A stretch of DNA of 64,000 bases from Rheinheimera sediminis (GTDB lineage Bacteria; Pseudomonadota; Gammaproteobacteria; Enterobacterales; Alteromonadaceae): the NCBI RefSeq assembly GCF_004005375.1, contig NZ_RZUF01000001.1, positions 62,001 to 126,000 on the forward strand, read 5' to 3'. The notes beneath the pieces are model-generated. The model was not told the origin of the DNA. It ran no database searches and worked only from the letters and a program-made list of their open reading frames with translations. Positions 46,855-62,323 of the stretch are shown in pieces; positions within the stretch are counted from its first letter, which is position 1; every line of letters begins with the position of its first letter. Both the position numbers and the translations under genes were made by a program.

Positions 46855-47220
46855 ATGGCTATACCAATTACTATTGCAGATGATTCTGCGCTGTCTCGAA
46901 AAACAATAAGGCGCGCCTTACCTCCGGAATGGGAAGTCAGCATTTGCGAGGCTACTAATGGTAAAGAAGCAATCACCGCTGTTGAAAATGGTCTGGCAGA
47001 GGTGCTATTTCTTGACCTCCAAATGCCTGAAATGGATGGATATCAGGTGCTCACTTATCTTAAGCAGCATCATGAAAAAGCCGTGGTTATAGTGATCAGC
47101 GCTGATATTCAACCTGAGGCTCAAGCTCTAGTTAACGCTCTTGGCGCGTTCAGATTTTTGAAAAAGCCACTTGAACCTGCTTTACTAGGCCAAACCCTCA
47201 AAGAGCTTGGTTTGTTATGA
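46855..47220 (+). CDS. CheY-like single-domain response regulator
   Basis: A 121-residue stand-alone receiver with acidic pair DD at 9-10 (TIADDSALSRK), phospho-acceptor Asp in LFLDLQMPEMDG (about 55), Ser in VIVISAD (about 83) and Lys in LKKPLEP (about 106). AAAGGAG precedes the ATG. It overlaps the CheC-like gene by 4 bases, so regulator and putative phosphatase are made together. Confidence 0.9.
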   Translation: MAIPITIADDSALSRKTIRRALPPEWEVSICEATNGKEAITAVENGLAEVLFLDLQMPEMDGYQVLTYLKQHHEKAVVIVISADIQPEAQALVNALGAFRFLKKPLEPALLGQTLKELGLL

Positions 47221-47795
47221 GCAGCTACTTCATATCTGAAGAGCAAAAAGATGCGCTGCAAGAGGTATTGAATATCTCTATGGGGCAAGCTGCAGATGCT
47301 CTTGCACGGCTCATACAAACCCAGGTGCACTTGTCTATTCCTTCGATCAAGCAAAGTAGCAGCGACCATTTTATAGAGCGCCTCAAAAATCCGGATCAAC
47401 AACTTGCGCAACAATCATTCCTCGGTGAGCTGAGTGGCGAAATGATATCTCTGATGTCAGACGGTGATAATGCCGCCATTGCAGAATTAATGAACTACGA
47501 CATTCCGCTGGTCGAACACGAAAAACAGGAGCTCATGCTGGAGCTAACCAATATATTGGCCGGCGCCTGTCTGCATGGCCTGATCTCTCAGCTCAATTTT
47601 AAAATCCAACTTGCAGCCCCCGTATTGCTTAACCCGGCCTCCATTTGTATTGAGCAACTGAGCTGGCAACAAGCTTTGTTGATGGAAATTTGCTTTCAAA
47701 TACCACAGAGCAGCTTCAATGCAGAGATACTGATCTGTTTAAAGCAAGACTCTTTGTTACCTTTAAAAAACCATTTAGACATGCTGCTGCAGTAA
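47217..47795 (+). CDS. CheC/CheX-like receiver phosphatase
   Basis: A 192-residue protein with the two CheC-type signatures: EEQKDALQEVLNISMGQAAD (E-x2-N) and EKQELMLELTNILAGACLHG (E-x2-N), each with the Glu and Asn that act on aspartyl phosphate. CheC, CheX and FliY dephosphorylate CheY in other bacteria. No chemotaxis genes are near; it lies between a single receiver and a PAS kinase, so it probably resets that receiver. Confidence 0.82.
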   Translation: MSSYFISEEQKDALQEVLNISMGQAADALARLIQTQVHLSIPSIKQSSSDHFIERLKNPDQQLAQQSFLGELSGEMISLMSDGDNAAIAELMNYDIPLVEHEKQELMLELTNILAGACLHGLISQLNFKIQLAAPVLLNPASICIEQLSWQQALLMEICFQIPQSSFNAEILICLKQDSLLPLKNHLDMLLQ

Positions 47796-47814: not shown

Positions 47815-49137
47815 ATGATAGATGATAAGTTAGCTTTGCAACTAATCAGGCAATTACCTATAGGCGCGTGTTTAGTTAGTACGGATTACACTATTCTTCT
47901 GTGGAATGATTTTTTTTCTGAACGTTTGCAACTAGTGCCTGAGCAAGCCTTGGGGAAAAACCTACTTGAACTCTTCCCGGAGCAAAGTAAATTCCTGAAA
48001 AGAAAACTTGATTCAGTTCTCGTGCTAAAAAATACCAGCTTCAGTTACTGGGAACAACGTCCACATATTTTTCATTTTAAAAGCTCCAGGCCAGTCACAG
48101 GGCATGAAGAACTCATGTATCAAAACATGGAGATTTTGCCTATTACAAACACAGCAGGTGATGTGAGTTATCTGTTTATTGCCATTATGGACGCAACGAC
48201 CACAGCCTCATACTCCCTGGCGTTGAAACAAGCGCTTAGTCAACTTGAAGAGGAACACAAAGCTCAGGCTGAATTAATCAGAAAACTAGAAGAGGCACAT
48301 AATCAACTGTTGCAGGCAGAAAAAATGGCGTCTATAGGCCAGTTAGCTGCTGGAGTAGCCCACGAAATCAATAATCCTATTGGGTTCATCTCTTCTAACA
48401 TGGAAACTTTGCAGCATTACTGCGAAAGCCTGATCCAGGCAATCAACTTCGCAGGCTCACTGATCTCACAAAGTAATTCAGCTGAATTATCTAAACAATT
48501 TGCAGATTTTGGCAAACAACGTAACCTGAATTTCTTACTGCAGGACATGCCAGAGCTTATCACTGAGTCTTTAGAGGGCACTGGCAGAGTGATGTCGATC
48601 GTAAAAAGTTTGCGCGAATTTTCTCATGTCGATAGTTCTGAATGGAAAGAGACGAATCTGATCGATGGTATAGAAAGTACCTTACGAATCATCAACAATG
48701 AACTTAAATATAAGGCTGAAGTACATAAAAACTACCAAAAGGATATGCCGCTGGTCTATTGCCAGTCGATGCAGATCAATCAGGTTTTTATGAATATTCT
48801 GCTCAACGCAGCACAAGCTATGGAGCAGATGGGCTTTATTTACATAGATATTGCCACTGAAGGGGATTTCGCAAAAGTCAGTATTCGGGACACTGGTCCT
48901 GGCATAGAAGTGCAGCATTTAAATAAGATTTTTGACCCATTTTTTACCACGAAAGCCGTCGGAGCAGGCACAGGTCTGGGTCTTTCACTGTCTTACAGCA
49001 TAGTACAAAAGCATAAAGGTAAAATTAGTGTGCAGAGCCAGATAGGCCAAGGCGCAGAGTTTACTATTTTATTGCCTTTGCACCAGCAGCATGAGGAGCA
49101 GCCTGAAGCTGATTCGTCAGTGGAAAATATACTGTAA
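47815..49137 (+). CDS. PAS-domain sensor histidine kinase
   Basis: A cytoplasmic kinase of 440 residues: PAS domain (about 8-125, LPIGACLVSTDYTILLWNDF), coiled coil (about 130-165), HisKA with His183 in GVAHEINNPIGF, and HATPase with NILLNAAQAM, RDTGPGIE and GTGLGLSLSYSIV. No membrane segment. It is third in the CheY-CheC-kinase unit and likely donates phosphate to that receiver. Its 3' end overlaps the convergent kinase gene by 74 bases. Confidence 0.9.
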   Translation: MIDDKLALQLIRQLPIGACLVSTDYTILLWNDFFSERLQLVPEQALGKNLLELFPEQSKFLKRKLDSVLVLKNTSFSYWEQRPHIFHFKSSRPVTGHEELMYQNMEILPITNTAGDVSYLFIAIMDATTTASYSLALKQALSQLEEEHKAQAELIRKLEEAHNQLLQAEKMASIGQLAAGVAHEINNPIGFISSNMETLQHYCESLIQAINFAGSLISQSNSAELSKQFADFGKQRNLNFLLQDMPELITESLEGTGRVMSIVKSLREFSHVDSSEWKETNLIDGIESTLRIINNELKYKAEVHKNYQKDMPLVYCQSMQINQVFMNILLNAAQAMEQMGFIYIDIATEGDFAKVSIRDTGPGIEVQHLNKIFDPFFTTKAVGAGTGLGLSLSYSIVQKHKGKISVQSQIGQGAEFTILLPLHQQHEEQPEADSSVENIL

Positions 49138-50503
49138 AACGACTATACAGCCCTAGCTCACTCTCAACGTCAATCCGACCGCTGTGCTCCATCATAATAC
49201 TGTGACAAAGGGATAAACCAAGTCCGGTGCCAGTGCCTACCGTCTTAGTGGTGAAAAAAGGGTCAAACACTTTGGTGATATGCTCAGCTGCGATCCCCAT
49301 TCCATTATCCCGAAAAGAGACCCAAGCCTCCTGCCCCGCTATACCAGAGCTTATGATCAATTCACCATGGTCATGCTGAATAGCTTGACTGGCATTGACA
49401 ATGATATTTAAAAATACCCTACTGATCTGGTTCGATTTACCTGTGACATACAAGGCTGCAGGATACAGATTTTTGTTCAGTAACAACGAATGTTTGATCT
49501 CGCCACCGACCATCTTAATGGTCGACTCCAGATTATCATTCAGATTCACTAATTCCACCTGATCAGTATCAGGGTGAGAAAAACGTCTTAAACTTTGGAC
49601 TATATCCCTCACTCTGATAGCACCCTCAACTGAGTCTGCTATCAAAGTATTGCTATCCTCAAGTAAAAAAGGGATGTTTTCATTCTCACGCAGGGTCTTG
49701 ATTTCCAACTTAGCTTTTTCTTTTACCTCTTCAGTCTGTTGGTCGTCACAAAGCAATTGATAATTCACCAGTAAATTTTTAAAGATTGTCATGTAGGTTT
49801 CAAACATGTGAATGTTGCTTAACAAAAAACCTATAGGGTTGTTTAGTTCATGCGCAACACCGGCAGCCAGCTGCCCCAAAGAGGCCATTTTCTCTGAATG
49901 AAGCAAACTTTGCTCTATTCGATGCTGGCGGTCTTTCAGAGCCTGGGAGCTCAGATACAATTTCTTGTTTTCAACACTGGCAATAGTACTGGCGACAAAA
50001 CTAATGAACTGACTGACAATACGTTCATCAGACGGACCAAAAGCAGAGATAGAATAGGAGCCTAATATCAATAGGAATCGTTGATCTCTGGTCTGGATAC
50101 TCTGAAATAATGCTGAGTGAACTCCAGGCCACCAATGCAGTGTTGATTCGCCCCAACGAGGTAACAGACCAAGGTTAAAGATGGCCACGACATTTCTCTT
50201 CGATAAAATACCGGCTAAACTTTCAGTTCCTAAATTCGCTTGACTTGGCCAGTCCGGCGCATGTTGACTGGCTATCAGCGTAAAATGTTCTGGCTCTAAT
50301 CTGAGTAACACCGCAGTATCAAATTGCACGCACTCAGCCATGACGCCAAAAAACTTAGCAAAGGTATCCTCCAGCGTATCTGATCCCAGAATAGCATCCA
50401 GGCCTTTTTGCAGAAGCTGATTCAATCTTACATGCAGTAGCGCATTATCTCTTTCAAAGGTCAGCTCCAGAACTTTTTCTCTTAGCTTTTCAATGTCAGC
50501 CAT
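49064..50503 (-). CDS. GAF-like sensor histidine kinase partnered with FIST protein (NahK-like)
   Basis: A soluble kinase of 479 residues: N-terminal coiled coil (1-30), GAF-like domain (about 35-185, with VQFDTAVLLRLEPEHF and SALFQSIQTRDQRFLLILGS), linker coil, HisKA with His218 in GVAHELNNPIGF, and HATPase with NIIVNASQAI, RDNGMGIA and GTGLGLSLCHSIM. It overlaps the FIST gene by 8 bases and would be the kinase controlled by that sensor. The catalytic half is closely similar to the facing kinase at 47815, suggesting an old duplication. Partner regulators are probably the three receiver proteins beside it. Confidence 0.88.
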   Translation of the reverse strand: MADIEKLREKVLELTFERDNALLHVRLNQLLQKGLDAILGSDTLEDTFAKFFGVMAECVQFDTAVLLRLEPEHFTLIASQHAPDWPSQANLGTESLAGILSKRNVVAIFNLGLLPRWGESTLHWWPGVHSALFQSIQTRDQRFLLILGSYSISAFGPSDERIVSQFISFVASTIASVENKKLYLSSQALKDRQHRIEQSLLHSEKMASLGQLAAGVAHELNNPIGFLLSNIHMFETYMTIFKNLLVNYQLLCDDQQTEEVKEKAKLEIKTLRENENIPFLLEDSNTLIADSVEGAIRVRDIVQSLRRFSHPDTDQVELVNLNDNLESTIKMVGGEIKHSLLLNKNLYPAALYVTGKSNQISRVFLNIIVNASQAIQHDHGELIISSGIAGQEAWVSFRDNGMGIAAEHITKVFDPFFTTKTVGTGTGLGLSLCHSIMMEHSGRIDVESELGLYSRFTVYFPLTNQLQAAPHAAGAKAIK

Positions 50504-51665
50504 CTACTTCTCCGAACAAGACGGTAGCGTACATCAGATTCCCATGTCTGTTCGTTTGGTCAACAGCATACCCCTGTTCGCCAAAAGTAAAAGCTATTAA
50601 AAAAGGCGCGCCATTCAAAGCTTCAAGTACATTAGTGTGAACCACTGAAATCTGTTCTTTGATACTCAGCAAACAAGCACCACAAAATATAACTATACCT
50701 CCGCTTACCTTTTGTTCGGGTAATGAACTTCGGGCACATTCGCACATAGTGCCGGCCCGACTCAGCAGCCGGGGAATTTCACTGGTCATCAGACAAAGCT
50801 CTTTACCTTGCTGCACTTCCGCGAATAACTCTATGCTGCCATCAGCATGAAAATTGGTGGGTAAACTGAGCATATACAAAGGAATACCCAATTGCTCTTG
50901 TTCGATAATAGACCCCAGAGGGCTGAGAGTTGTCTCTTGCATGTAATTACTATGAATACGCCTGTTTAACCAACTACTATAAACCTCAATAGCTGGTTTT
51001 TCGTCTATCTCTTGCAATAAGCGCCCCTGAGCCTTGGTCACTATACCTCTGGATTCTGTTGGAATATAACCTGAGTGAAAAAAGTGGCTAATAGCCACGG
51101 ATGGGTAAAAGACGGCTATCACAATAGCTTCCTGATAAATCGATTGTCCGTCAAACTGCAACCACTGACCTGAAACATCGTCGTCCGCGCTACTGCCGCC
51201 ATACACCGGCACTTTTTTACCCAGCATCCGTTCTATTTCTAACAACACCACTTCTTCGGTGCCGGGTGGCTGCATACACCAGACTAACTTTGGCACTTCA
51301 TAAGGACGTCCTGCTTTGTTTAAGGCCGCTTCCAGCGCAACTCGGGTTGCCTTCGCGATGTCCTGACCTTCTATCACAGCACTGCCACTGCCATAGTGGC
51401 CATTCTCATCAGTAATCATCAAAACAGCAAGACTGTCCTGATCTAAAAATACCCCTTGTTCAGTCATCACACCTAAGCAGGAGCTACCGCCCAGCCATTG
51501 CTCAGCATAATCAGTCAAAGATAATTCAGGAAGAATTCGGATCCTGCTGTGGTGCCCCATCACTAAACCAAAATCAAACTTTTGCTTACCGAGCTGACTC
51601 TCCAGATCTCGCAACATAGCGTCTGGTTCCTTTGCTTTGCTATATGCAGTTTTTATTTCAAACAT
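50496..51665 (-). CDS. FIST-domain sensory protein (NosP-like candidate)
   Basis: A 389-residue cytoplasmic protein with FIST_N (about 20-215; SLAVLMITDENGHYGSG, VPVYGGSSADDDVSGQW) and FIST_C (about 220-370; PAIEVYSSWL, GIVIFCGACLLS). FIST proteins bind small ligands, and one class (NosP) binds haem and senses nitric oxide next to a histidine kinase and c-di-GMP genes. The operon here (REC-HD, FIST, kinase) fits that class. I cannot prove a haem ligand from sequence. The gene is 3 bases from the REC-HD gene and overlaps the kinase gene by 8. Confidence 0.8.
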   Translation of the reverse strand: MFEIKTAYSKAKEPDAMLRDLESQLGKQKFDFGLVMGHHSRIRILPELSLTDYAEQWLGGSSCLGVMTEQGVFLDQDSLAVLMITDENGHYGSGSAVIEGQDIAKATRVALEAALNKAGRPYEVPKLVWCMQPPGTEEVVLLEIERMLGKKVPVYGGSSADDDVSGQWLQFDGQSIYQEAIVIAVFYPSVAISHFFHSGYIPTESRGIVTKAQGRLLQEIDEKPAIEVYSSWLNRRIHSNYMQETTLSPLGSIIEQEQLGIPLYMLSLPTNFHADGSIELFAEVQQGKELCLMTSEIPRLLSRAGTMCECARSSLPEQKVSGGIVIFCGACLLSIKEQISVVHTNVLEALNGAPFLIAFTFGEQGYAVDQTNRHGNLMYATVLFGEVDG

Positions 51666-51668
51666 AGA

Positions 51669-52997
51669 TTAAGACTCCACACTAGCCTTAGCTGATGAGA
51701 CTAAAAACAGCCACTTTTTCTGTCTTCTTGATTCAATCTGACGCAATTTAGCAATACTAGCGTCAGTCAGAACGTGACCTCGGGGCAAAAGTAAAACTTT
51801 GTTTTCATTGTATAAAGGCCGTTCCAGCACCATGCCTTTTTCAAGCTGCTCTATCGTCAGCTCCTTATGCGAAGAAGATACTATTTCTGCACCAAACAAC
51901 TCGTCTGACGACAAAGTGGACAGTATCTGCAGTAGCACAGGGTCGTACGAGCTGCCTTGTTGCATTTTTAACTGCTGTACCACGTTAGAAAAATCGCTGT
52001 CATTATGGGCGCCAAGCTTCTCCAACATTAGCCAAAAGTCTCTGGCTAACGCAATAATGCGAGCTCCCAGAGGTATATCGGTTCCGACCAGATGGTCTGG
52101 GCTACCCGAGCCGTTATAACGCTCAAACTGATGGTAAATTGCATCCGACATCAGAGCCAGATGAGTTGCAGGCAATAGCATTAACTGGGCCATAGCTGGA
52201 TGTGTCAAAAACTGCTGCCGCTCAGAACCGTCCAGTTCATGGAAGGGTTTATTGTAAAGCGCAGTGTCCATTCCAAGTAAGCCAAGCTGGGACAGTAAAC
52301 CCGCCATAACAATTTGCTGTTTCTCTTTTGGCTCAAGCTGCAAATGTACACATAGCAAATGACAGGTTCTGGCGATGTGCTGAGCAAAATGGCCGTTCAA
52401 ATTAGGATTAATGCTAATAAAGTTAAACAATAAGTCCAGTAAAGATTGATGCTCTTTCTCTAGCTGCTTCAACACATTTCGTAACTGGCTGGTTCGCTTG
52501 GTCACATGTTGCTCAAGCTGAAGATTCATCTCTTTTAATTTACTGTTCTGAATACTCAGTTTGGTTTGCAACTCTCTGTTTTGCTTGACCAACTGGTACT
52601 TTTCTACCGAGTCTTTGACCTGTACTATCAGCTCCTCATTACGCCAGGGTTTTTGAATGTAACGCTGGATTTGTCCTCTGTTAATAGCGATGATGGTAGA
52701 GCTTATATCGGCATAGCCTGTTAACACCAAACGCTGACTGTCCGGAGCTTTTTGAGCGGCAATTTGCAAAAACTCTTCTCCGGTCATACCAGGCATGCGC
52801 ATGTCACTGATAATGACCGAAAATTCTTGTTTATCCATCAGAGACAAGGCCTGCTCCCCTCCGGCAGCAGTCACTACCTCTAAGCCGCTACTGGCCAGTA
52901 AACGATGTAACGACTTGAGAATACTGATTTCATCATCAACACAAAGTACTGGCGGCGCTGCAGATGAAACGTGACTTAGTGGTTGATCAGAATTCAT
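51669..52997 (-). CDS. response regulator with degenerate HD-GYP domain (HnoD-like)
   Basis: A 442-residue protein: receiver (about 14-130; CVDDEISIL, phospho-acceptor in IISDMRMPGM, LTGYAD, QKPW), coiled coil (about 135-185), HD-GYP-type domain (about 190-350) and a C-terminal tail. In the HD-GYP part the metal-binding HD is SQ (GLLSQLGLLGMD), and the terminal motif is YNGSGSP instead of DGSGYP, so c-di-GMP hydrolysis is unlikely. In Shewanella, HnoD has this architecture and inhibits the REC-EAL phosphodiesterase. GAGG lies before the ATG. First gene of the minus operon, divergent from HTH-REC. Confidence 0.85.
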   Translation of the reverse strand: MNSDQPLSHVSSAAPPVLCVDDEISILKSLHRLLASSGLEVVTAAGGEQALSLMDKQEFSVIISDMRMPGMTGEEFLQIAAQKAPDSQRLVLTGYADISSTIIAINRGQIQRYIQKPWRNEELIVQVKDSVEKYQLVKQNRELQTKLSIQNSKLKEMNLQLEQHVTKRTSQLRNVLKQLEKEHQSLLDLLFNFISINPNLNGHFAQHIARTCHLLCVHLQLEPKEKQQIVMAGLLSQLGLLGMDTALYNKPFHELDGSERQQFLTHPAMAQLMLLPATHLALMSDAIYHQFERYNGSGSPDHLVGTDIPLGARIIALARDFWLMLEKLGAHNDSDFSNVVQQLKMQQGSSYDPVLLQILSTLSSDELFGAEIVSSSHKELTIEQLEKGMVLERPLYNENKVLLLPRGHVLTDASIAKLRQIESRRQKKWLFLVSSAKASVES

Positions 52998-53035
52998 TGG
53001 AACCTCGGCTCGACATAATTCGTCTCTTCTGTCTC

Positions 53036-53068
53036 TTGTGTCGCATTTAGCTTAAAGTTATGCTAAAT
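53036..53068 (+). promoter_or_regulatory. promoter with overlapping palindromic operator
   Basis: TTGTGT (53036-53041) and TATGCT (53059-53064) are 17 bases apart and form a plausible promoter for the HTH-REC gene. A perfect dyad ATTTAGC (53045-53051) / GCTAAAT (53062-53068) with a 10-base centre occupies the spacer and -10. A regulator bound here could also cover the divergent promoter of the REC-HD operon. Confidence 0.5.
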
Positions 53069-53104
53069 TCAGTCTGAGTGCAAGAACAAGGTCAAAAAAC
53101 CACC

Positions 53105-53656
53105 ATGAAAACTTTGACACCAGGTGAAATAGCCCAGTATTGTGATGTGCATCAACGCACAGTCAGTCGATGGATAGCCTGTGGACAACTAAAGGGCTTC
53201 AAACTTCCGGGTAGAGGAAATTATAGAGTAGTATTGGCTGATTTTATTGAATTTTTACAAAAGCAAAGGATCCCCGTGCCGCCAGAATTAAGTGAGGCCA
53301 CGTCCGTGCTGGTGGTGGATGATGAAGTGGCTTATCAGCACGCTATACAGCGTGTGCTGAAAGCTGCTGGCTACGAGGTTTTACTGGCAGCGGACGGTTT
53401 TCAGGCTGGAGTGCTACTGTTAGCAAATAAACCCAGACTAATGACTTTGGATTTACAGATGCCTGGACTCAACGGTTTTGAAATACTTAAATTTATTCGC
53501 CAGCATCCAGATCTCTCACATACAAAAATTCTGGTGATTTCAGGTTTGGGTCAAGCTGAACTGGAGCAAGCCAGAATAGCCGGAGCGAACGCAACTTTGG
53601 CAAAACCTTTTGATAATGCGTTGTTACTCAGGTCAATAGCACATTTGCTTGATTAA
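53105..53656 (+). CDS. response regulator with N-terminal excisionase/MerR-like HTH (HnoC-like)
   Basis: A 183-residue DNA-binding regulator in unusual order: winged HTH first (about 1-55; TPGEIAQYCDVHQRTVSRWI, GFKLPGRGNYRV), then a receiver (about 65-183; VLVVDDEVAYQHA, phospho-acceptor in MTLDLQMPGLNG, VISGLG, LAKPF). This is the architecture of HnoC, the phosphorylation-relieved repressor of the Shewanella NO network. The ATG at 53105 (MKTLTPG) is preferred over a GTG at 53078 because homology starts at it and AAGG lies upstream. The palindrome just before it is a likely autoregulatory site. Confidence 0.85.
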   Translation: MKTLTPGEIAQYCDVHQRTVSRWIACGQLKGFKLPGRGNYRVVLADFIEFLQKQRIPVPPELSEATSVLVVDDEVAYQHAIQRVLKAAGYEVLLAADGFQAGVLLLANKPRLMTLDLQMPGLNGFEILKFIRQHPDLSHTKILVISGLGQAELEQARIAGANATLAKPFDNALLLRSIAHLLD

Positions 53657-53677
53657 GGAAATAAATCGGAGCTTAGG

Positions 53678-55678
53678 ATGACAAGTACAGTACTGATCGT
53701 TGACGACGAAGCCGCGGTGCTTCGGAGCCTGGAGCGTCTATTGGTTCGGGCTGGTTACAAGGTCATTGCCGCTTGTGGCGCTGCTGCAGCACTTGAATTA
53801 CTCAAGCAGCACCAGATACAGATTATCCTGACAGATTTTCGGATGCCTCTGATGTGTGGTAACGAGCTGCTTAAAGAAGTTAAACAGAGTGAGCCACAGA
53901 TAGTAGGTTTAATTTTAAGCGGTTATGCCGACTTTAATGCTGTGGTGGAGACATTAAACTCAGGTGTAGCCTACAAATTTCTGCAAAAGCCTTGGACAGA
54001 CGAATTATTGCTGTCTGAGATCCGGTTGGCAGAAACTGAATATAAACGCAGAACCCAACCCGATTTACACACTCAACTATTGATCAGCAGTCAGGATGCT
54101 CTGATGGAGTTGGATGAAAAAGGTGATATCCTGCGGATCAATGCAGCTTTGGCTAAATTGTGGCAACTCAATGCAACAGATGTAAGTCACAGCCAGTTAT
54201 CAGATTTTTTGCCCAATCTATCAGCAGTGCAACTGCAACAGTTTCTGGCCCAGCCACAAACTACGATACTGTGTTTAGACCGCCAACAACATGAAATTGA
54301 GTTAAGCCACAGATCCTCTACAGAAGATACATTACTGCTAAAACTGGAAAGATTGACCCCCTTGCCGCAGTTCAACTCAGATTTGTCTAATTTGAGTAAC
54401 CTGTTAAACCACCAGCATGTCTGTCAGTTGATAGATTCTCATATCTCAGCTCAACCCGGACTTATAGCCGTTGCAGTGCTTGATATAGGTAACTTTAGTT
54501 TAATCAACGACACCATGGGCTATGACCAAACAGATATGCTGATCAACAAAGTAGCATCTCTGTTGTTACAGCAACTGAAAGCTGATCAACACCTGGCTTA
54601 TTTATCTGGCGACAAATTTGCGCTGATATTTACCAACTGTGCTGATGAAATGGCGTTACAACTTCAGATCACAGAGTGTTTATCTGTTTTTGATCAACCG
54701 CTGTTACATGAAGACAGACTCATGCAACTCAATTTCAATCTGGGTTATGCCATAGCCCCAGAGGACAGCACTGTAGCGGAAAAACTGCTGTGGTACGCTA
54801 ATCTGGCCTGCAGAACCAACAGAAGCAACCAGCATCATTTTTACATGCGGTTTGAACAAGCCATTCTGGACAGCAAACAACAGCAGTTTGAAATCAGTAA
54901 TGCGCTCTATGGCGAGTTGGAAAATAATGGTTTTAGCCTGAACTTCCAGCCCAAAATATCACTTTGTGACGGCAGAATACGCCAGGCTGAGGTTTTACTG
55001 CGCTGGAACCATCCGACACTTGGCAGTATTTCTCCGGCTTTATTTGTGCCAATTGCCGAACGGGATGGACAAATCATTCGTATTGGATTCTGGGTGCTTG
55101 AGCAAGCCTTACTCTCTCTTCGTTCTTTTTATCAGCAAGGACTGGAGATTGACTGGTTAAGCGTCAATGTGTCGGGACGTCAATTACAAGATCCGGCGTT
55201 TAGCGACCAATTGCAGCACCTGCTCACAAAATACCAGATCAAGCCTGAGCAAATTGAGTTAGAAGTGACAGAGACCTATTTAATGGAAGATTTGCAGCTA
55301 AGTAACAAAGTCTTGTCTGAGTTACATCAAACTGGTGTAAGAATTTCAATGGACGACTTTGGAACTGGTTATTCCTCTCTGGCTTACCTGACCAAGTTGC
55401 CTATTGATGAAGTTAAACTTGACCGCTCATTGCTTACCGAATTAAGCAGTGATCTCCAGAGTCAGGGAATGGTAAGGAATATCATCCGGATGGCGCATGA
55501 GCTTGGCCTTGTGGTTACGGCGGAAGGTATAGAAACATTAGAACAGCAGCAATTACTCCAGATGATGGACTGCGACCTGATTCAGGGCTATTTCTACAGC
55601 AAACCTCTGAACATGCAGCACTTTGTAGAAATACTAAAACAGCAACCTTTTGCTGGAGAACACTCCGATGTCAACTAA
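53678..55678 (+). CDS. response regulator with PAS-like, degenerate GGDEF and EAL domains (HnoB-like)
   Basis: A 666-residue protein: receiver (4-120; LIVDDEAAVLRSLER, LTDFRMPLM, LSGYAD, QKPW), PAS-like segment (about 130-225), GGDEF-type domain (about 245-395) and EAL domain (about 405-655). The cyclase signature reads SGDKF rather than GG(D/E)EF, so cyclase activity is doubtful. EAL residues look intact: AEVLLRWNHP, VNVSGRQL, ELEVTETYL, ISMDDFGTGYSSL, KLDRSLL, AEGIET and QGYFYSKPL. Expected to degrade c-di-GMP under control of phosphorylation. It follows HTH-REC by 21 bases and overlaps the REC-HDOD start by 11. Confidence 0.88.
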   Translation: MTSTVLIVDDEAAVLRSLERLLVRAGYKVIAACGAAAALELLKQHQIQIILTDFRMPLMCGNELLKEVKQSEPQIVGLILSGYADFNAVVETLNSGVAYKFLQKPWTDELLLSEIRLAETEYKRRTQPDLHTQLLISSQDALMELDEKGDILRINAALAKLWQLNATDVSHSQLSDFLPNLSAVQLQQFLAQPQTTILCLDRQQHEIELSHRSSTEDTLLLKLERLTPLPQFNSDLSNLSNLLNHQHVCQLIDSHISAQPGLIAVAVLDIGNFSLINDTMGYDQTDMLINKVASLLLQQLKADQHLAYLSGDKFALIFTNCADEMALQLQITECLSVFDQPLLHEDRLMQLNFNLGYAIAPEDSTVAEKLLWYANLACRTNRSNQHHFYMRFEQAILDSKQQQFEISNALYGELENNGFSLNFQPKISLCDGRIRQAEVLLRWNHPTLGSISPALFVPIAERDGQIIRIGFWVLEQALLSLRSFYQQGLEIDWLSVNVSGRQLQDPAFSDQLQHLLTKYQIKPEQIELEVTETYLMEDLQLSNKVLSELHQTGVRISMDDFGTGYSSLAYLTKLPIDEVKLDRSLLTELSSDLQSQGMVRNIIRMAHELGLVVTAEGIETLEQQQLLQMMDCDLIQGYFYSKPLNMQHFVEILKQQPFAGEHSDVN

Positions 55679-56789
55679 AGAATTTCTGGTGTTATTGATC
55701 GACGATGAAGAATTAATCTTAAGAGCATTAAAACGCACGCTCAGCCGTTTAGTGCCGCACTGGAGAGTGGAAACCTTACAAGATGGACACTTAATGACAG
55801 AAGTAGTCTCCAAGGGGCTGCAGCCGGACGTGGTTATCACGGACAGATTAATGCCTGGCCTGAATGGTGAACAGCTGTTATTACAAGCAAAGCAACTTTG
55901 CCCTATTGCGCTTCGCTGCATACTTACAGCGGACAACTCTGCGGATTTGCTGCTGCAGGATAGTGCTTTAATTCACTTTTATCTGGCCAAGCCTTTTACC
56001 GACGAGCAGTTACTGAAGATTTTTTCCTGTGCAGAACAATTACACAGCTTAGATTTCCCTGCACCAGAGCGTGCTTTTCTCGGTCGGTTGGCGGTGTTGC
56101 CAGTGCTACCGCCTTTGTACCAGAAAATACAGAATGTGTTGAATGACACTGAGTTTCAGCTCAAAGATGTGGCTGAACTAATCAGCCACGACCCTGTCGT
56201 CAGCAGCAGGCTGCTACAATTAGCCAACTCTGCCTTTCTGGGCTTCTCCCGTTCCACAGTGTCTTTAACTGAAGCCATTAGTCGGCTGGGACTGGATATG
56301 ACTAAATCTATAGTACTGGCGCTGAAGAGCAGTCTGGCCTACCAGGGCCCTATCAATGTGGAGCAGCATCAACGAATAACAGAGAAAGCTTTTCATCAGG
56401 CTTGTATGGCTCGTTATCTGTGCAAGCAAGCTGGGCTTGGTGCCGAAATACAGGATTATGCCTTTTTGGCGTCGTTATTTGACTGTCTGGGCTGGATGGC
56501 TGAACACTTACAGCAACCCTCTATGTCAGATGAGGACTCCTGCCACTTCTCCTTGATCTCAGCGTATTTACTGACACTCTGGGGCTTTGAGCGCAGCATA
56601 GTGCAAGCCGTAATACTGCCTGAGGATTTGGCAGACTGTACCTCAATCCCTGGCGTGGTGCATTGGTTGGCGCATAAAGTAGTGCATCACAAAAATTACC
56701 AACTCACTGAGGTGGATCAACATATAGTCGAATCGCTGCAGCTCGATTCCGCATGGACAGAGCTGCTTACAGGACTAAAAACCAGCTGA
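55668..56789 (+). CDS. response regulator with HDOD domain
   Basis: A 373-residue protein: receiver (about 5-120; LLIDDEELILRALKR, phospho-acceptor in VITDRLMPGLNG, ILTADN, LAKPF) and HDOD domain (about 140-330; LPPLYQKIQNVLND, ISHDPVVSSRLLQLANSAFL, ISRLGLDMTKSIVL). HDOD domains are HD-superfamily folds used in signalling, often without catalysis. I choose the ATG at 55668 (MSTKEFLVL) with GGAG 9 bases upstream; the frame at 55650 is less likely. Last gene of HTH-REC, REC-EAL, REC-HDOD. Confidence 0.87.
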   Translation: MSTKEFLVLLIDDEELILRALKRTLSRLVPHWRVETLQDGHLMTEVVSKGLQPDVVITDRLMPGLNGEQLLLQAKQLCPIALRCILTADNSADLLLQDSALIHFYLAKPFTDEQLLKIFSCAEQLHSLDFPAPERAFLGRLAVLPVLPPLYQKIQNVLNDTEFQLKDVAELISHDPVVSSRLLQLANSAFLGFSRSTVSLTEAISRLGLDMTKSIVLALKSSLAYQGPINVEQHQRITEKAFHQACMARYLCKQAGLGAEIQDYAFLASLFDCLGWMAEHLQQPSMSDEDSCHFSLISAYLLTLWGFERSIVQAVILPEDLADCTSIPGVVHWLAHKVVHHKNYQLTEVDQHIVESLQLDSAWTELLTGLKTS

Positions 56790-57341
56790 GTGGGCGACAT
56801 GATTGAATAATGGCTCACCAGAGCGTGTATTAGATATCTGTGTGCCTCTGTTGTAAAACAAAAGGGAGCGAATCCTAAACCCGGCCTGTACTGCAGACCT
56901 CTGCACCCTGCCCCCTCTGAAGTCATAGCCGGCCTCAGAGGAGCAAGCTCCAGCAGATTTTACTCTTTAGCAGATGCTATCACCTAGCCTTGGTACAAGG
57001 TTAAGTTCTGGCAGATCTATGGAGAAATAGTGTGAGAGCCATAGCTCCTTGTGCCGCGTTTTACATAGCACCAGCACAGAATTTGTGCTTTTTGTCCAAG
57101 TCTTTCGGTTCACAGACAAGAAGCTTCAGCTTTAACGGTGTGGTTTTTGCTTGAATCCTCCCCTCTCAATTGCTGCTACAAACAAGGCTACAGCTATGAA
57201 ATGGCGCAAAGAATGACGCTTTTCGAACGAAAAATCCGCTTTCAAGAAATTTAGACAAAATAATCGTATAAACCCGGTGTAATTTTCAAACAAAACCTCT
57301 ACTATCTAAGTATCATTTTTTTCAAATAATTTTAATGTGCG
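56790..57341. other. 552-base intergenic region before the hybrid kinase
   Basis: No gene is supported. CCTCTGA (56914-56920) and TCAGAGG (56935-56941) form a 7-bp stem without a T-run. Bases 57230-57340 are AT-rich and probably hold the kinase promoter, but no convincing -35/-10 pair was found. Confidence 0.4.
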
Positions 57342-60300
57342 ATGTCAATAGTACCGGACCCCTACAAGAGCATGGTTCAGCCACATAAACTGTTCAGTGT
57401 TGCTGCTCTGAGTTTATTTGGCCTCATTGCTAACCTACTGGCTCTTGAGCTGCCACTCACCACACCTCTGTTGTTGGGTAATCTGGCATTTATTGTTATT
57501 TTGCAGCGCCATGGCCTCTGGTGGGGTTTGGCGTCGGCCATTCTGGTGTTATTTCCTCTGGATTCGCCCTTGTATTGGCTGTGCTCATTATTGCAACTGC
57601 TGACAGTTCTGCTATTCAGTCGTGTTACCCGCAGAAAGTGGCTGTTGCTCCTGTTGTATTTCCTGTGTTGCCTGCTGGTGTTATTCTGGTTTCCTGTGCA
57701 AAAACAACCTTTTATCGCAGTGTTGCTAAGTGCTCTGATACTGACAAGTACCTTAATGATACTGCAACATTTCGCCCGACTTTTTATATTTCAATCAGCA
57801 AGCCAGCAAACAAAACGACAGCAACCTCTGCAAAAGCAGCTAGGTAGCCGAATCGCAATTATGGCAGCCATTCCCTGGTCATTGATGATTAGCGCGCTAC
57901 TGCATGGCTCTGTAGTGCTGAATCTGTCAGGTTATGTCAATGAACTTGCAATGCAACAGCAACAGATAGAAAGCCAGTTAAAACAAAAACTCATGTCCTA
58001 TCAGGCGGAACTAAGACTTGCGTCCAGTTATGCCAGTTTGGTTGGAGATGAACAAAGCTTGCAGCAACTGGTCTACAGTCAACCTGAGTTTATATCGGCA
58101 CTACGCACAGATGCTGCTGGTATAGTTCGCTCCTTTTTTAAAGAACAGGCAGCACAAGATATAGCAGGACATTCAGTAGCTCACAGAGACTACTTTATCG
58201 AACCACAGCGCACAGGCCAGGCTTATATCAGCGACGTATTTCAAGGCCAGAGACTGGGGACAGATCTGCTATTTGCCTTGAGCTTACCTTTATTTCAAGA
58301 GCAACAGTTTGCAGGCGTATTGGAACTATCCGTTGCTCTTGAGCGGCTGACCACTGCACTTAAACCCCGTTATCAGGACAATCATCTTCAGGTTATACTG
58401 ATGGATGGTCAACAGATCAAAATCTGGGGGTATGCCGCGCCACAACTACCAGGGCAAAAAATGGCGCTGGATCATGCGTCTGTGGCCAAATCCAAAGCTT
58501 ATTTGACCCACAGCCCCTTCCATAGCCCCGGCGAACTGTATTTTAATCAGCAAGGCAATAAAATCAGATTAGAAAGCCAAATAGAAGGCACCAACTGGCC
58601 ACTGCTGCTTTTATGGGACTACAGCCATCTGGCATTGTTTTATCAGTTGCTGACGTTAGCAGCTTTGTTATTGATGTTGGCTGGTTTTGAGTTGTTGTCC
58701 CGCAGTAGCCGGCGTTTTGCCAGCGGTTATACCGGCGCTTTGCAACAACTGATGAATGCTATTGAGAACATGCAACTGCACTCTGTTGAACCCGCTAAAC
58801 TCGTGTTAAAAAACTCAGCCCTTGAATTTGAACACTTATTGGCAAGTTTTACCTCATTGCAGCAACGCTTACAATCCGGTCATAAAGCCCTGCAGTCTGC
58901 TCTGGAAGAAAAAACAAACCTGAGCCAACAATTGGAACAAAGAGTCACAGAACGCACCGCTGAATTATCCATTGAACGCGATAAAGCACAACAACTGGCG
59001 TCCACTAAAACCAGATTTTTAGCCAATATGAGTCATGAGTTGCGTACTCCCTTAACTGTTATCCTGGGGTTTATTCAACAAATTATGACCAAGCCTCACG
59101 ACTCTTTACTGCAAAGTCAGCTACAAACTATTGATAGTCAGAGCAAATTCTTACTACAAATTGTCAACGACATTCTCGATGCCGCCAAAATGGATGAAGG
59201 TAAATTACCACTTGAGTTATTGGATTTTGAATTACAGCAACTGCTGAATGAATTACACCAAAGTTTGTTGCCTGCAGCTCAGGCTAAAGCTTTAAATTTC
59301 TGCCTGGACATTAAATATCCATTACCGCGCACTTTGCACAGCGACCCGCTAAGACTGAAACAAATTCTGATGAATTTGCTAAGTAATGCACTCAAATTTA
59401 CGCAGCAAGGTGAAGTGCGGCTATCTGCTACCATAGCGCAAAACCAGTTGCATCTGGTGATCTCTGATACAGGACCAGGGATCAGCTCTGAGATGCAGCA
59501 AAAACTCTTTGCCGCTTTTGAGCAGGGTGATCCTGGTGTTAGTCGCCAGTTTGGGGGGACAGGGCTGGGTTTGTACATTTGTAAGCAACTAGCTGATTTA
59601 TTGGGCTATCAACTCACTTTACACAGTACTCTGGAGCAAGGCACCCAATTTACTTTAGCCATTCCTTTGACAGTTCACACTGAGCTTTTACTAAAGGCGC
59701 CACTACAAAGCACCAGAAACAGTATGCAAGCTCAGCAACAACTTCCTACCTTTGTTGGTAAAGTGTTGATCGTCGATGATGTTCCAGATTTGCGTCTGCT
59801 GTTCAGTACTTTGCTCAAAAGCACTGGATTGGAGATACAAACAGCGCTCAATGGATTAGATGCGATTCAAAAAGTAACTTTAGAGACTTTTGATTTAATT
59901 TTGATGGATATGCACATGCCTGTCATGGATGGCTTAACTGCAACTTTAGAATTGCGAAGGCTTGGTTATCAAATCCCCATTATCGCACTCACTGCGGATG
60001 TTCAGGCTGAACAAAAGCGGCTTTGCCTGCAGGCGGGCTGCCAAACTGTATTGACTAAACCTGTACAAGCAGAACATTTGTACAGCAAAATAGCTGAATT
60101 TCTGCCTGTCAAACAATCAGAGAAGGCAGAAACTGCTATTCAGCAACAGTTAGATGAGTTGACAGCGATGTATCGTGAAAGCCTGCCGTCGGTAGCACTA
60201 GACCTGGAAAAACTCATGCAAGTAAAGGACCCTGTCCCTACTGCTGCACTATTGCACAGGATCAAAGGCACTTCAGCCTGCTTTGGTTTCAATCGTATCA

Positions 60301-60401
60301 GTAGTCTGGCCGCAGCAGCTGAACGAGCTCTGGCAGAAAACAACTGGCCTTTAGAGCAACTAAAGGAATTGCTTATCGCCATACAACAAGAAAATCCTTA
60401 A
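57342..60401 (+). CDS. hybrid sensor kinase: membrane domain, Cache sensor, HisKA, HATPase, REC, Hpt
   Basis: A 1019-residue hybrid kinase. N-terminal multi-helix membrane region (about 15-155, MASE-like), a further helix (about 172-192), periplasmic Cache-type sensor (about 195-425; SALRTDAAGIVRSFF, AHRDYFIEPQRTGQAYISDV), helix (about 428-447), coiled coil, HisKA with His near 564 in NMSHELRTPLTVILGF, HATPase (NALKFTQQG, DTGPGIS, GTGLGLYICKQL), receiver (LIVDDVPDLRLLF, acceptor in ILMDMHMPVMDG, LTKPV) and a C-terminal Hpt with His near 971 in LLHRIKGTSACFGF. The phosphorelay can pass phosphate to a separate regulator; nearby receivers are candidates. Its stop shares TTAA with recD. Confidence 0.9.
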   Translation: MSIVPDPYKSMVQPHKLFSVAALSLFGLIANLLALELPLTTPLLLGNLAFIVILQRHGLWWGLASAILVLFPLDSPLYWLCSLLQLLTVLLFSRVTRRKWLLLLLYFLCCLLVLFWFPVQKQPFIAVLLSALILTSTLMILQHFARLFIFQSASQQTKRQQPLQKQLGSRIAIMAAIPWSLMISALLHGSVVLNLSGYVNELAMQQQQIESQLKQKLMSYQAELRLASSYASLVGDEQSLQQLVYSQPEFISALRTDAAGIVRSFFKEQAAQDIAGHSVAHRDYFIEPQRTGQAYISDVFQGQRLGTDLLFALSLPLFQEQQFAGVLELSVALERLTTALKPRYQDNHLQVILMDGQQIKIWGYAAPQLPGQKMALDHASVAKSKAYLTHSPFHSPGELYFNQQGNKIRLESQIEGTNWPLLLLWDYSHLALFYQLLTLAALLLMLAGFELLSRSSRRFASGYTGALQQLMNAIENMQLHSVEPAKLVLKNSALEFEHLLASFTSLQQRLQSGHKALQSALEEKTNLSQQLEQRVTERTAELSIERDKAQQLASTKTRFLANMSHELRTPLTVILGFIQQIMTKPHDSLLQSQLQTIDSQSKFLLQIVNDILDAAKMDEGKLPLELLDFELQQLLNELHQSLLPAAQAKALNFCLDIKYPLPRTLHSDPLRLKQILMNLLSNALKFTQQGEVRLSATIAQNQLHLVISDTGPGISSEMQQKLFAAFEQGDPGVSRQFGGTGLGLYICKQLADLLGYQLTLHSTLEQGTQFTLAIPLTVHTELLLKAPLQSTRNSMQAQQQLPTFVGKVLIVDDVPDLRLLFSTLLKSTGLEIQTALNGLDAIQKVTLETFDLILMDMHMPVMDGLTATLELRRLGYQIPIIALTADVQAEQKRLCLQAGCQTVLTKPVQAEHLYSKIAEFLPVKQSEKAETAIQQQLDELTAMYRESLPSVALDLEKLMQVKDPVPTAALLHRIKGTSACFGFNRISSLAAAAERALAENNWPLEQLKELLIAIQQENP

Positions 60402-62323
60402 AGCCGCACATCGCCCTGGCGCTGTACTTTTAGCTCCACAGCTTTGGCTAACAATTCTGCTTTGCCGCAAATTAAACTAAATAATTTTGCGGCTCTGGTA
60501 ATGCCGGTGTAAATCAGTTCACGCGTCAATACAGGACTAAACTGATCCGGTAAAACCAGGACCGCATGACGGAATTCTGAGCCCTGAGATTTATGTACCG
60601 TAATAGCATAAGCCGTTTCGACTTGCTGCAAACGGCTGGGTAAAACCCAGCGCACCGCTTTGCTGCTGTCCTCAGAAGCAAAAGCCACAGCCAGTATCCA
60701 TTTGCCCTGATAAGGCCGAGCTAAACAAATACCGACATCACCATTCATTAAGCCAAGCGCATAATCGTTTTGCATCACCATTACAGGCCGCCCGGCATAC
60801 CAAAGACTGCCCTGCCTGGCACTGTGTTGGCTGCTATAGTGAATAAGTCCAGCCTGATGCAAAATTCTCTCTACTGTCAGATTCAGCTGCTCCACCCCCA
60901 AAGGTCCTTGTCTCACAGCACAAAGCAACTGAAAAGCTGAAAAATCCGTGAGCACCTGCTGCGCCCAATGATCAATCTGCAAATCTGTAGCATCTAAAGC
61001 AGGGGGTTGTGCTGCAATCTGCAGATAAAAACTAAAACCCGCAGCATCTGGTCGTTGCTTTTGCACCTGTCCGGTCAACACCAATTGCTTGAGCTGCGGA
61101 AATTCTGCTGCCGCCAGATACTGCAGATCGGCATACTCAGCCCGGCAAATAGCAGCTACTTCCGTACTTTGACCGCTATTGACCGCAGTCGCCAGTTTGG
61201 CGATGCCGCTCTGTGGGTCAAATCTGTGGCTAACTCTGAGCATACCAATTTGCTGCTCCAGCGCTTTGCCTTGTTGGCTGATTAAATGCACTGGAATCGC
61301 CGCAGAGGACAACTGTTCAAGCCAAGCCGCAGTTGCGGGCCAATACTGCCCTTGCTCAGCCCACTGACACAGCTCTGCCATTAAAGCGCCCGCTTCAACC
61401 GACGCCAGCTGGTCTTTATCGCCCAATAAAATCAGCCGCGCATGAGCTGGTAAGGCCGACAATAAAGCCGCCATCAGCTCGACATCCAGCATAGAGGCTT
61501 CATCCACTACTAATAGATCGAGCGCCAAAGGCTCCAGTGCATTTTGTTTAAACTGTCGGCTTTGCGCTCTGGCCCCCAACAACTTGTGCAAGGTCGACAC
61601 ATCGGTCGGCACCTGGCTTTTGATCTCAGCCGAAGCTGGCAGCTTATCTAAGGTGTTACGAATCGAGCTGCGAAGCCGCACTGCCGCTTTGCCCGTAGGA
61701 GCAGCCAGTTGAATGGTCAGAGGCGCAGCACCTTGCTGTTGCTGCAATTGCTGCAATACCAACAGCAACTTGACGACTGTGGTGGTTTTGCCAGTACCGG
61801 GGCCCCCAGTGATCACACTAAAACTACTGCTGGCAGCTATGGCGCAGGATAAACGTTGCCAGTCAGGTTCAACTTGTGTTGCTGCAGTGGCAGGAAATAA
61901 CGGCTCCAGCAACTGATTCAGCAGAGCCGGATTGATAGCCTGACGCAGCTGCTGACTGCGCTCGCTGCTTTGCTGTAAATACTGGGCTATCTGCTGCTGA
62001 TAACTATAATAACGCCGCATATACAAGGCATTATTGGCATAAACAAAAGGCTGATTATCATCCCGCTCCAGCTGAAACAAAGCCGGATACAACGCCATCA
62101 AAGCCTGCCAGTCTTGTTCGGACTGCTGCGGCATACGTTTAACTGATAAACACAAATGACCGGCAGAAAGCGCAAAGCTGCATTGGCCGATCAATAGCGC
62201 AAGCGCAGCGGGTAGCTGCTGTTGCTCGCGGAAAAAAGTCACCAGAGCTTTATCCAAAGCCCGCCAGTCCTTGCCCTGCATCTGCAGTTCAAGTTGTTTC
62301 TCAGCCCATTCAATATCAGACAT
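60398..62323 (-). CDS. recD: exodeoxyribonuclease V alpha subunit RecD
   Basis: 5'-3' helicase subunit of RecBCD, which processes double-strand breaks. The 641 residues (E. coli 608) show Walker A VITGGPGTGKTTTVVK, Walker B LLVVDEASMLDVELM, GDKDQLASVEAGA and the C-terminal motif AYAITVHKSQGSEFRHAVLV. The start overlaps the recB stop by 8 bases; GGAGCTGGCTG provides a ribosome-binding site. The stop overlaps the convergent hybrid kinase stop. Confidence 0.95.
   Translation of the reverse strand: MSDIEWAEKQLELQMQGKDWRALDKALVTFFREQQQLPAALALLIGQCSFALSAGHLCLSVKRMPQQSEQDWQALMALYPALFQLERDDNQPFVYANNALYMRRYYSYQQQIAQYLQQSSERSQQLRQAINPALLNQLLEPLFPATAATQVEPDWQRLSCAIAASSSFSVITGGPGTGKTTTVVKLLLVLQQLQQQQGAAPLTIQLAAPTGKAAVRLRSSIRNTLDKLPASAEIKSQVPTDVSTLHKLLGARAQSRQFKQNALEPLALDLLVVDEASMLDVELMAALLSALPAHARLILLGDKDQLASVEAGALMAELCQWAEQGQYWPATAAWLEQLSSAAIPVHLISQQGKALEQQIGMLRVSHRFDPQSGIAKLATAVNSGQSTEVAAICRAEYADLQYLAAAEFPQLKQLVLTGQVQKQRPDAAGFSFYLQIAAQPPALDATDLQIDHWAQQVLTDFSAFQLLCAVRQGPLGVEQLNLTVERILHQAGLIHYSSQHSARQGSLWYAGRPVMVMQNDYALGLMNGDVGICLARPYQGKWILAVAFASEDSSKAVRWVLPSRLQQVETAYAITVHKSQGSEFRHAVLVLPDQFSPVLTRELIYTGITRAAKLFSLICGKAELLAKAVELKVQRQGDVRL

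Follow-up and report, generated by a model that had tools for sequence, protein, structure and literature searches.

A probable Rheinheimera sediminis counterpart of the Shewanella oneidensis hno/nosP cluster, and a suggested exchange of FIST and H-NOX sensors among related loci

The DNA analysed here is a stretch of 64,000 nucleotides of Rheinheimera sediminis (contig NZ_RZUF01000001.1, forward-strand positions 62,001 to 126,000; the window), and its subject is a cluster of signalling genes encoding a FIST-domain protein, a soluble histidine kinase and several proteins with receiver (REC) domains. A first-pass annotation had placed at 49064-56789 a FIST gene, a kinase gene overlapping it, and genes for REC-degenerate HD-GYP, helix-turn-helix (HTH)-REC, REC-degenerate GGDEF-EAL and REC-HDOD proteins. 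All of these were found at their places, but the cluster exceeds those limits, with CheY, CheX and PAS kinase genes at one side and a hybrid kinase gene at the other. The features, in window coordinates, are the following.

46855..47220, plus strand: CheY-like protein of a single receiver domain, at the head of the CheY-CheX-PAS kinase operon (Pfam Response_reg)
47217..47795, plus strand: CheC/CheX-type phosphatase (Pfam CheX, CheC; both ExxN sites intact)
47815..49137, plus strand: PAS histidine kinase (Pfam PAS, HATPase_c; HisKA under its cut-off)
49064..50503, minus strand: soluble histidine kinase, NahK/HnoS-like (H218 in an HELNN box)
50496..51665, minus strand: FIST/FIST_C protein (Pfam FIST and FIST_C; fold model)
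51669..52997, minus strand: REC with degenerate HD-GYP, HnoD/NosR-like (NCBIfam NosR, 450.1 bits)
53018..53053, no strand: degenerate 9-bp repeats between divergent genes, where relatives have the candidate HnoC operator (matrix score 10.7)
53059-53068: -10-like TATGCTAAAT, between the divergent HnoD-like and HnoC-like genes
53105..53656, plus strand: HTH_17-REC, HnoC-like (reading frame from GTG 53078; conserved ATG 53105)
53678..55678, plus strand: REC-PAS-degenerate GGDEF-EAL, HnoB-like (Pfam; intact EAL catalytic residues)
55668..56789, plus strand: REC-HDOD, counterpart of SO_2538 (reading frame from 55650; likely ATG 55668; intact receiver residues)
57342..60401, plus strand: hybrid kinase HisKA-HATPase-REC-Hpt (Pfam; conserved cluster member)

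The minus strand carries the REC-HD, FIST and soluble kinase genes, and the divergent plus strand those for HTH-REC, REC-PAS-GGDEF-EAL and REC-HDOD. The end of the FIST gene and the start of the soluble kinase gene share 8 bp, and the PAS kinase gene is convergent with the soluble kinase gene, with an overlap of 74 bp.

The locus is probably the Rheinheimera counterpart of the Shewanella oneidensis hno/nosP cluster (SO_2538-SO_2547), of which we take SO_2539-SO_2543 to be hnoB, hnoC, hnoD, nosP and nahK/hnoS. A 2019 paper by Nisbett, to go by its title, reportedly ties NosP to the Hno network. The same ten genes are carried in one cluster by a genome that is very probably that of S. oneidensis MR-1 (G468, below the MR-1-like genome). 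There the CheY, CheX and PAS kinase genes are followed, on the opposite strand, by those for hybrid kinase, kinase, FIST and REC-HD, and then by HTH-REC, REC-EAL and REC-HDOD. Five open reading frames (ORFs) of this genome, of 370, 658, 192, 441 and 121 residues, have the lengths printed for SO2538, SO2539, SO2540, SO2541 and SO2547 in the available part of a 2008 clone-set paper (PMC2500165), and therefore the window cluster would correspond to SO_2538-SO_2547. Pairwise alignment gives 37% identity between the window FIST protein and the presumed NosP of S. oneidensis, and the values for the other proteins are 41% (HnoD), 55% (HnoC), 36% (HnoB), 35% (REC-HDOD, 324 aligned positions) and 31% (kinase). 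These identities and the shared divergent layout bear out the likeness to Shewanella Hno/NosP proteins that had been noticed at first pass. The packing into one locus and the HDOD protein as a fourth output had been regarded as distinctive; both features recur in the MR-1-like cluster and are not. Judged by its sequence, the window locus is a divergent member of a known network and not a novel compact one. The whole set is conserved in the MR-1-like genome, and the cluster was compared across 20 genomes.

The S. oneidensis type of output set, consisting of HnoC (HTH-REC), HnoB (REC-EAL with intact EAL residues) and HnoD (REC-degenerate HD-GYP), is encoded together in the window. In the HnoB-like protein the GGDEF domain is degenerate by direct reading (SGDKF), while the EAL residues E438, N497, E529, D559/D560, K580, E616 and Q636 are invariant across 18 sequences including that of the window. 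The HD-GYP domain of the HnoD-like protein is likewise degenerate by direct reading (AGLLSQLG, NGSGSP), and the NCBIfam NosR model (NF053512, cut-off 400) gives 450.1 bits for the window protein, 451 for that of the MR-1-like genome and 436 for that of one H-NOX-type locus. The mean column identity of the HnoC HTH is 86% in 13 loci.

The FIST protein has both FIST and FIST_C domains and is encoded beside a soluble kinase, as is expected of a NosP. The histidine H374 in the motif NRHGNLM is kept in 94% of 63 FIST proteins and represents the only candidate residue for binding of haem or nitric oxide (NO) in the window protein. A fold model of this protein (predicted local distance difference test 85) was compared with solved structures, and the closest among the best 50 of 798 matches were FBXO22 chains (expectation value (E) 4e-8), several of them in BACH1 complexes, followed by cyanuric acid hydrolases; NosP was absent from these 50 matches. 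An alignment search against the sequences of solved structures yielded five matches, none better than E 0.056, and a scan of viral contigs with the FIST protein gave no match. The N-terminus of the soluble kinase is perhaps GAF-like: a weak GAF_3 match was obtained for three of 15 family members, the window's own kinase not among them. Its fold model is of low quality (predicted TM-score 0.37).

The statement that the locus has no H-NOX gene holds for the window and fails for the genome. On contig C27 (28451-28930; L030:8380-9917) there is a gene for H-NOX (HNOB), an NO/O2 sensor, with a downstream gene for a soluble kinase of 307 aa, and an organism devoid of H-NOX is thereby ruled out. Over 279 positions, the kinase that accompanies H-NOX shares 38% identity with the PAS kinase of the cluster. 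A near-match to the candidate operator described below (L030:8104) lies about 270 bp ahead of the contig-27 H-NOX ORF.

The distribution of the cluster was followed through HnoC-like proteins, which were found with two strict peptide patterns in 14 named loci of Rheinheimera, Alishewanella, Arsukibacterium, Shewanella and further Gammaproteobacteria, a sample and not a census. The HnoC HTH occurs in eight of 22 genomes of the genus, in 16 of 394 of the order and in six of 129 Shewanella genomes. A strong FIST match is present in the same eight genomes of the genus that carry the HnoC-like HTH, and also in G018, where the contig breaks off within the cluster; because the two co-occur in this way, the gene set is no chance assembly. 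In the wider order FIST genes stand mostly beside a hybrid kinase gene, and HnoC was not seen in the fetched stretches around them (51 loci of 54 matched genomes). Three genomes (G065, G137, G255) encode a FIST protein with the GAF-like kinase; HnoC does not appear in the stretch fetched, and an HnoC-like HTH occurs elsewhere in the same genome.

The sensor at the locus varies. Among the 20 cluster-bearing genomes, several of them drafts or metagenome-assembled genomes in which absences are soft, and with loci L033, L036 and L037 cut by contig ends, 15 have FIST with its kinase, four have H-NOX with a kinase, one has the FIST kinase alone, and none has both pairs. The H-NOX type, with neither FIST nor the FIST kinase, is found in R. 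baltica (L054), S. basaltis (L181), G516 and G489. In S. decolorationis S12 (L049 / L165) the FIST kinase is retained and the FIST gene is gone from between the kinase and REC-HD genes. Genome-wide, FIST without a detected H-NOX is present in nine genomes, both in six, including the window's genome, H-NOX without FIST of this clade in five (one of which, G516, has a distant FIST match, E 4e-11) and neither in none. The proximity of FIST genes to H-NOX genes in one H-NOX group has already been published (PMC8738867, in the part available).

A tree of HnoC, HnoB and HDOD proteins for 18 loci, rooted at the midpoint and carrying a long-branch warning for L038 with the window group, placed the H-NOX-type loci in one clade with support 100/100, so that a single sensor exchange suffices. 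Its topology mixes genera, with R. baltica placed among Shewanella and with Arsukibacterium and R. lutimaris next to MR-1 (L054, L044, L052 versus L179-L183). Together with the patchy presence of the cluster, this suggests its horizontal spread between genera. The comparison also suggests that two unrelated sensors, FIST and H-NOX, are exchangeable at this locus, in line with the earlier idea that FIST-type proteins can control kinases feeding the same outputs.

The HnoC promoters share a 9-bp direct repeat, GACAAAT-RN-GACA, next to the -10 element. Searched within 130 bp, the exact candidate operator GACAAATRNGACA marks the HnoC/HnoD promoter of 18 loci out of 19 (the window being the sole miss), 11 of the 14 cheY promoters examined (misses: the window, L032, L033) and three of the four in-cluster H-NOX promoters. 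A matrix built from 14 HnoC promoters out of the 19, excluding that of the window and four more, scored the cheY promoters of 10 among 13 scanned cheY-bearing loci at 17.6-24.6 and three in-cluster H-NOX promoters at 19.8-22.9; mono-shuffled sequence gave about one match of at least 11 per locus, or per 21 kb. For H-NOX genes outside the cluster, all three Shewanella tested (L215, L226, L228) have an exact site at the promoter, and the window's genome has none there; the fetched H-NOX regions of G002 and G018 (L231, L232) contain no exact site.

Because the exact pattern is hardly commoner than its reversed control (51 versus 40 sites in 12 genomes), the case for the operator rests on position. 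When 38 of the 51 sites were examined, 24 proved to be at hno, cheY or hnoX promoters, nine at chemotaxis genes and five in coding sequence, and in the MR-1-like genome three of three lie at the hno, cheY and hnoX promoters. For five of these nine chemotaxis-gene sites (L216, L217, L218, L222, L225), found in Shewanella sp. PS-2, R. texasensis and G006, Pfam confirmed that the genes downstream encode methyl-accepting chemotaxis proteins (MCPs), CheW or CheV-like (CheW+REC) proteins, and the other four (L220, L221, L223, L233) were assigned by likeness of the first residues. A CheW-MCP operon of R. texasensis that bears such a site is flanked by a divergently oriented, paralogous HTH_17-REC gene (L217:5314-5919), whose product is a possible alternative reader of the motif. 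HnoC itself is described in the discussion of one paper as binding palindromic motifs that overlap the start site and -10, and direct repeats are given there as the target of another MerR-type regulator, BldC (PMC9938897, available in part). The candidate repeat may or may not equal the published HnoC site.

Several observations weigh against the window cluster being the counterpart of hno/nosP, or against parts of this assignment. The identities to the MR-1 proteins are modest, down to 31% for the kinase. The comparison with NosP profiles, proposed at first pass, gave 38.4 bits with NCBIfam NF041558 (cut-off 450). The FIST protein of the MR-1-like genome was likewise unreported by this model at E 1e-7, so the miss is not diagnostic and provides no evidence against membership; the model was dropped as a membership test, and the window protein is, by sequence comparison, a FIST protein of the SO_2542 type and not an NCBIfam NosP. 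As H-NOX is also encoded in the window's genome, FIST may not be the sole input. In the accessible text of a review that predates the NosP paper, HnoK and not HnoS carries the NO signal (PMC6335343). The window also has no exact operator at HnoC or cheY: its HnoC repeats score 10.7, which is chance level, the matrix finds nothing at its cheY, the best match in the stretch scanned (14.2, at 57081-57096) lies between the HDOD and hybrid kinase genes, and the sole exact site in the whole genome sits inside a coding sequence.

It is rather unlikely that the REC-HDOD protein, the CheY-CheC-PAS kinase module and the hybrid kinase are hitch-hikers outside the network. This view is favoured by the network review, in which only three outputs are named in the part available (PMC6335343), by the lack of the exact operator at the window's cheY promoter and at hybrid-kinase promoters (0 of 19), and by the position of the module, which does not adjoin the cluster in G010, L048 and G431 and is located elsewhere in G002 and G006. 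Against it, the REC-HDOD gene adjoins HnoB in 18 of the 20 genomes, the contigs of the other two ending before it, and its receiver keeps the acidic pair, the phosphorylatable Asp and the Lys in 18 of 18 sequences. The hybrid kinase is also present in 18 of 20 (contigs of the other two are cut), on the HDOD side in the window, G010, G015 and G006, and an HnoC-type site stands at most of the cheY promoters. CheY is beside the cluster in 14 of the 20 genomes, the window included, and the residues D12/E16/N19 and E105/E109/N112 of the CheX-like protein are invariant in 14 sequences. It seems that the chemotaxis-like module belongs to the locus, as sequence comparison suggests. A second REC-HDOD-like gene (29% identity over 239 positions) was observed beside the kinase gene in G006 (L038:5360-6490).

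The working of the probable hno/nosP counterpart, including the ligand, the partner specificity, the signs of regulation and the action of HnoC on the window's own degenerate repeats, we infer as follows. The FIST protein, probably a haemoprotein, would bind the co-encoded soluble kinase, and NO (or haem) on FIST would shift the kinase/phosphatase balance. Phosphate would pass between the kinase and the HnoD-, HnoC- and HnoB-like receivers, and probably REC-HDOD as well. Phosphorylated HnoB would degrade cyclic di-GMP (c-di-GMP); unphosphorylated HnoD would restrain HnoB until phosphorylation switches the inhibitor off; and unphosphorylated HnoC would repress the divergent promoters, with phosphorylation lifting the repression. 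The CheY-CheC-PAS kinase module and the hybrid kinase would be further members, probably tuning or diverting the phosphate flow, with the CheC-type phosphatase and the Hpt domain as possible drains or relays for phosphate. Reviews describe, in the parts available, what HnoB, HnoC, HnoD, HnoK and HnoS do (PMC6335343, PMC8846402, PMC8738867, PMC12471899). If the accessible reports hold that NO lifts the inhibition of the kinase by S. oneidensis NosP (PMC12570481) and that HnoK is inhibited by NO-bound H-NOX (PMC8846402), the two sensors would be predicted to act with opposite signs on one output set at the exchanged loci.

That FIST senses haem or iron status instead of NO, so that the cluster, with kinase and outputs unchanged, would switch biofilm in response to haem, appears unlikely, about one chance in four. 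The FIST domains of Vibrio cholerae CdpA may detect haem, which inhibits its EAL domain (PMC8846402), and NO and HnoS signalling are said not to interact, HnoS possibly sensing another stimulus (PMC6335343), in the parts of these reviews available. The presence of H-NOX in place of FIST and its kinase in sister clusters favours NO as the common input, as does the reported relief of NosP inhibition by NO in S. oneidensis. It is quite improbable that the FIST-kinase pair merely lies next to the divergent HTH-REC operon, each with partners of its own, the outputs being served by one of three further candidate kinases (the hybrid, the PAS or the H-NOX-associated one, the latter two being alike as described above), as FIST accompanies HnoC in eight of eight HnoC-bearing genomes of the genus, sensor and kinase are exchanged jointly among clusters, and HnoS and HnoK both feed the same receivers in S. 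oneidensis (PMC6335343, in the available text).

The reading of the locus as a counterpart of hno/nosP may be broadened, tentatively and with somewhat less than an even chance of being right. In this form the Hno network would be a modular ten-gene unit moving between genera, in which FIST or H-NOX haem sensors with their own kinases are exchanged on constant outputs including REC-HDOD, and the HnoC regulon would reach the CheY-CheC-PAS kinase module and, in relatives, MCPs, CheW and CheV. The sensor exchange among the 20 genomes and the shared candidate operator are the new points from the comparison; as regards the window, the gain is chiefly one of annotation. If both points hold, they provide a natural test of whether FIST senses the same ligand as H-NOX, help to explain two sensors for one output set, and link NO sensing to the CheY/CheC branch and to chemoreceptor expression. 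S. oneidensis MR-1 is a tractable laboratory strain, and with its predicted sites the idea is directly testable.

Among known systems, the closest is Hno/NosP/NahK of S. oneidensis, where the tie of NO (or haem) sensing to c-di-GMP and biofilm has, in the sources available, already been studied. SO_2538, SO_2542 or SO_2544 were not found as parts of the Hno network in the literature searched, which mostly did not extend to subscription papers. The genes, their single cluster and the divergent layout are the same as in the window, and H-NOX with its kinase lies at a separate locus, as in the window's genome; the differences are the identity of 31-55%, the hybrid kinase at the opposite end, and in the window the degenerate repeats at HnoC and the missing operator at cheY. 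The H-NOX/HnoK type of cluster shares HnoC, HnoB, HDOD and the hybrid kinase with the window in four of four loci and the HnoD-like protein in three of four, but has H-NOX and a kinase in place of FIST and its kinase. The NosP-NosK-NosR system of Burkholderia, as far as its available description goes, resembles the window in the combination of FIST, a soluble kinase without a recognised sensor domain and a REC-degenerate HD-GYP protein, and the window passes the NosR model; the Burkholderia operon as described comprises these three genes only, without HnoC, HnoB and HDOD, which the window has.

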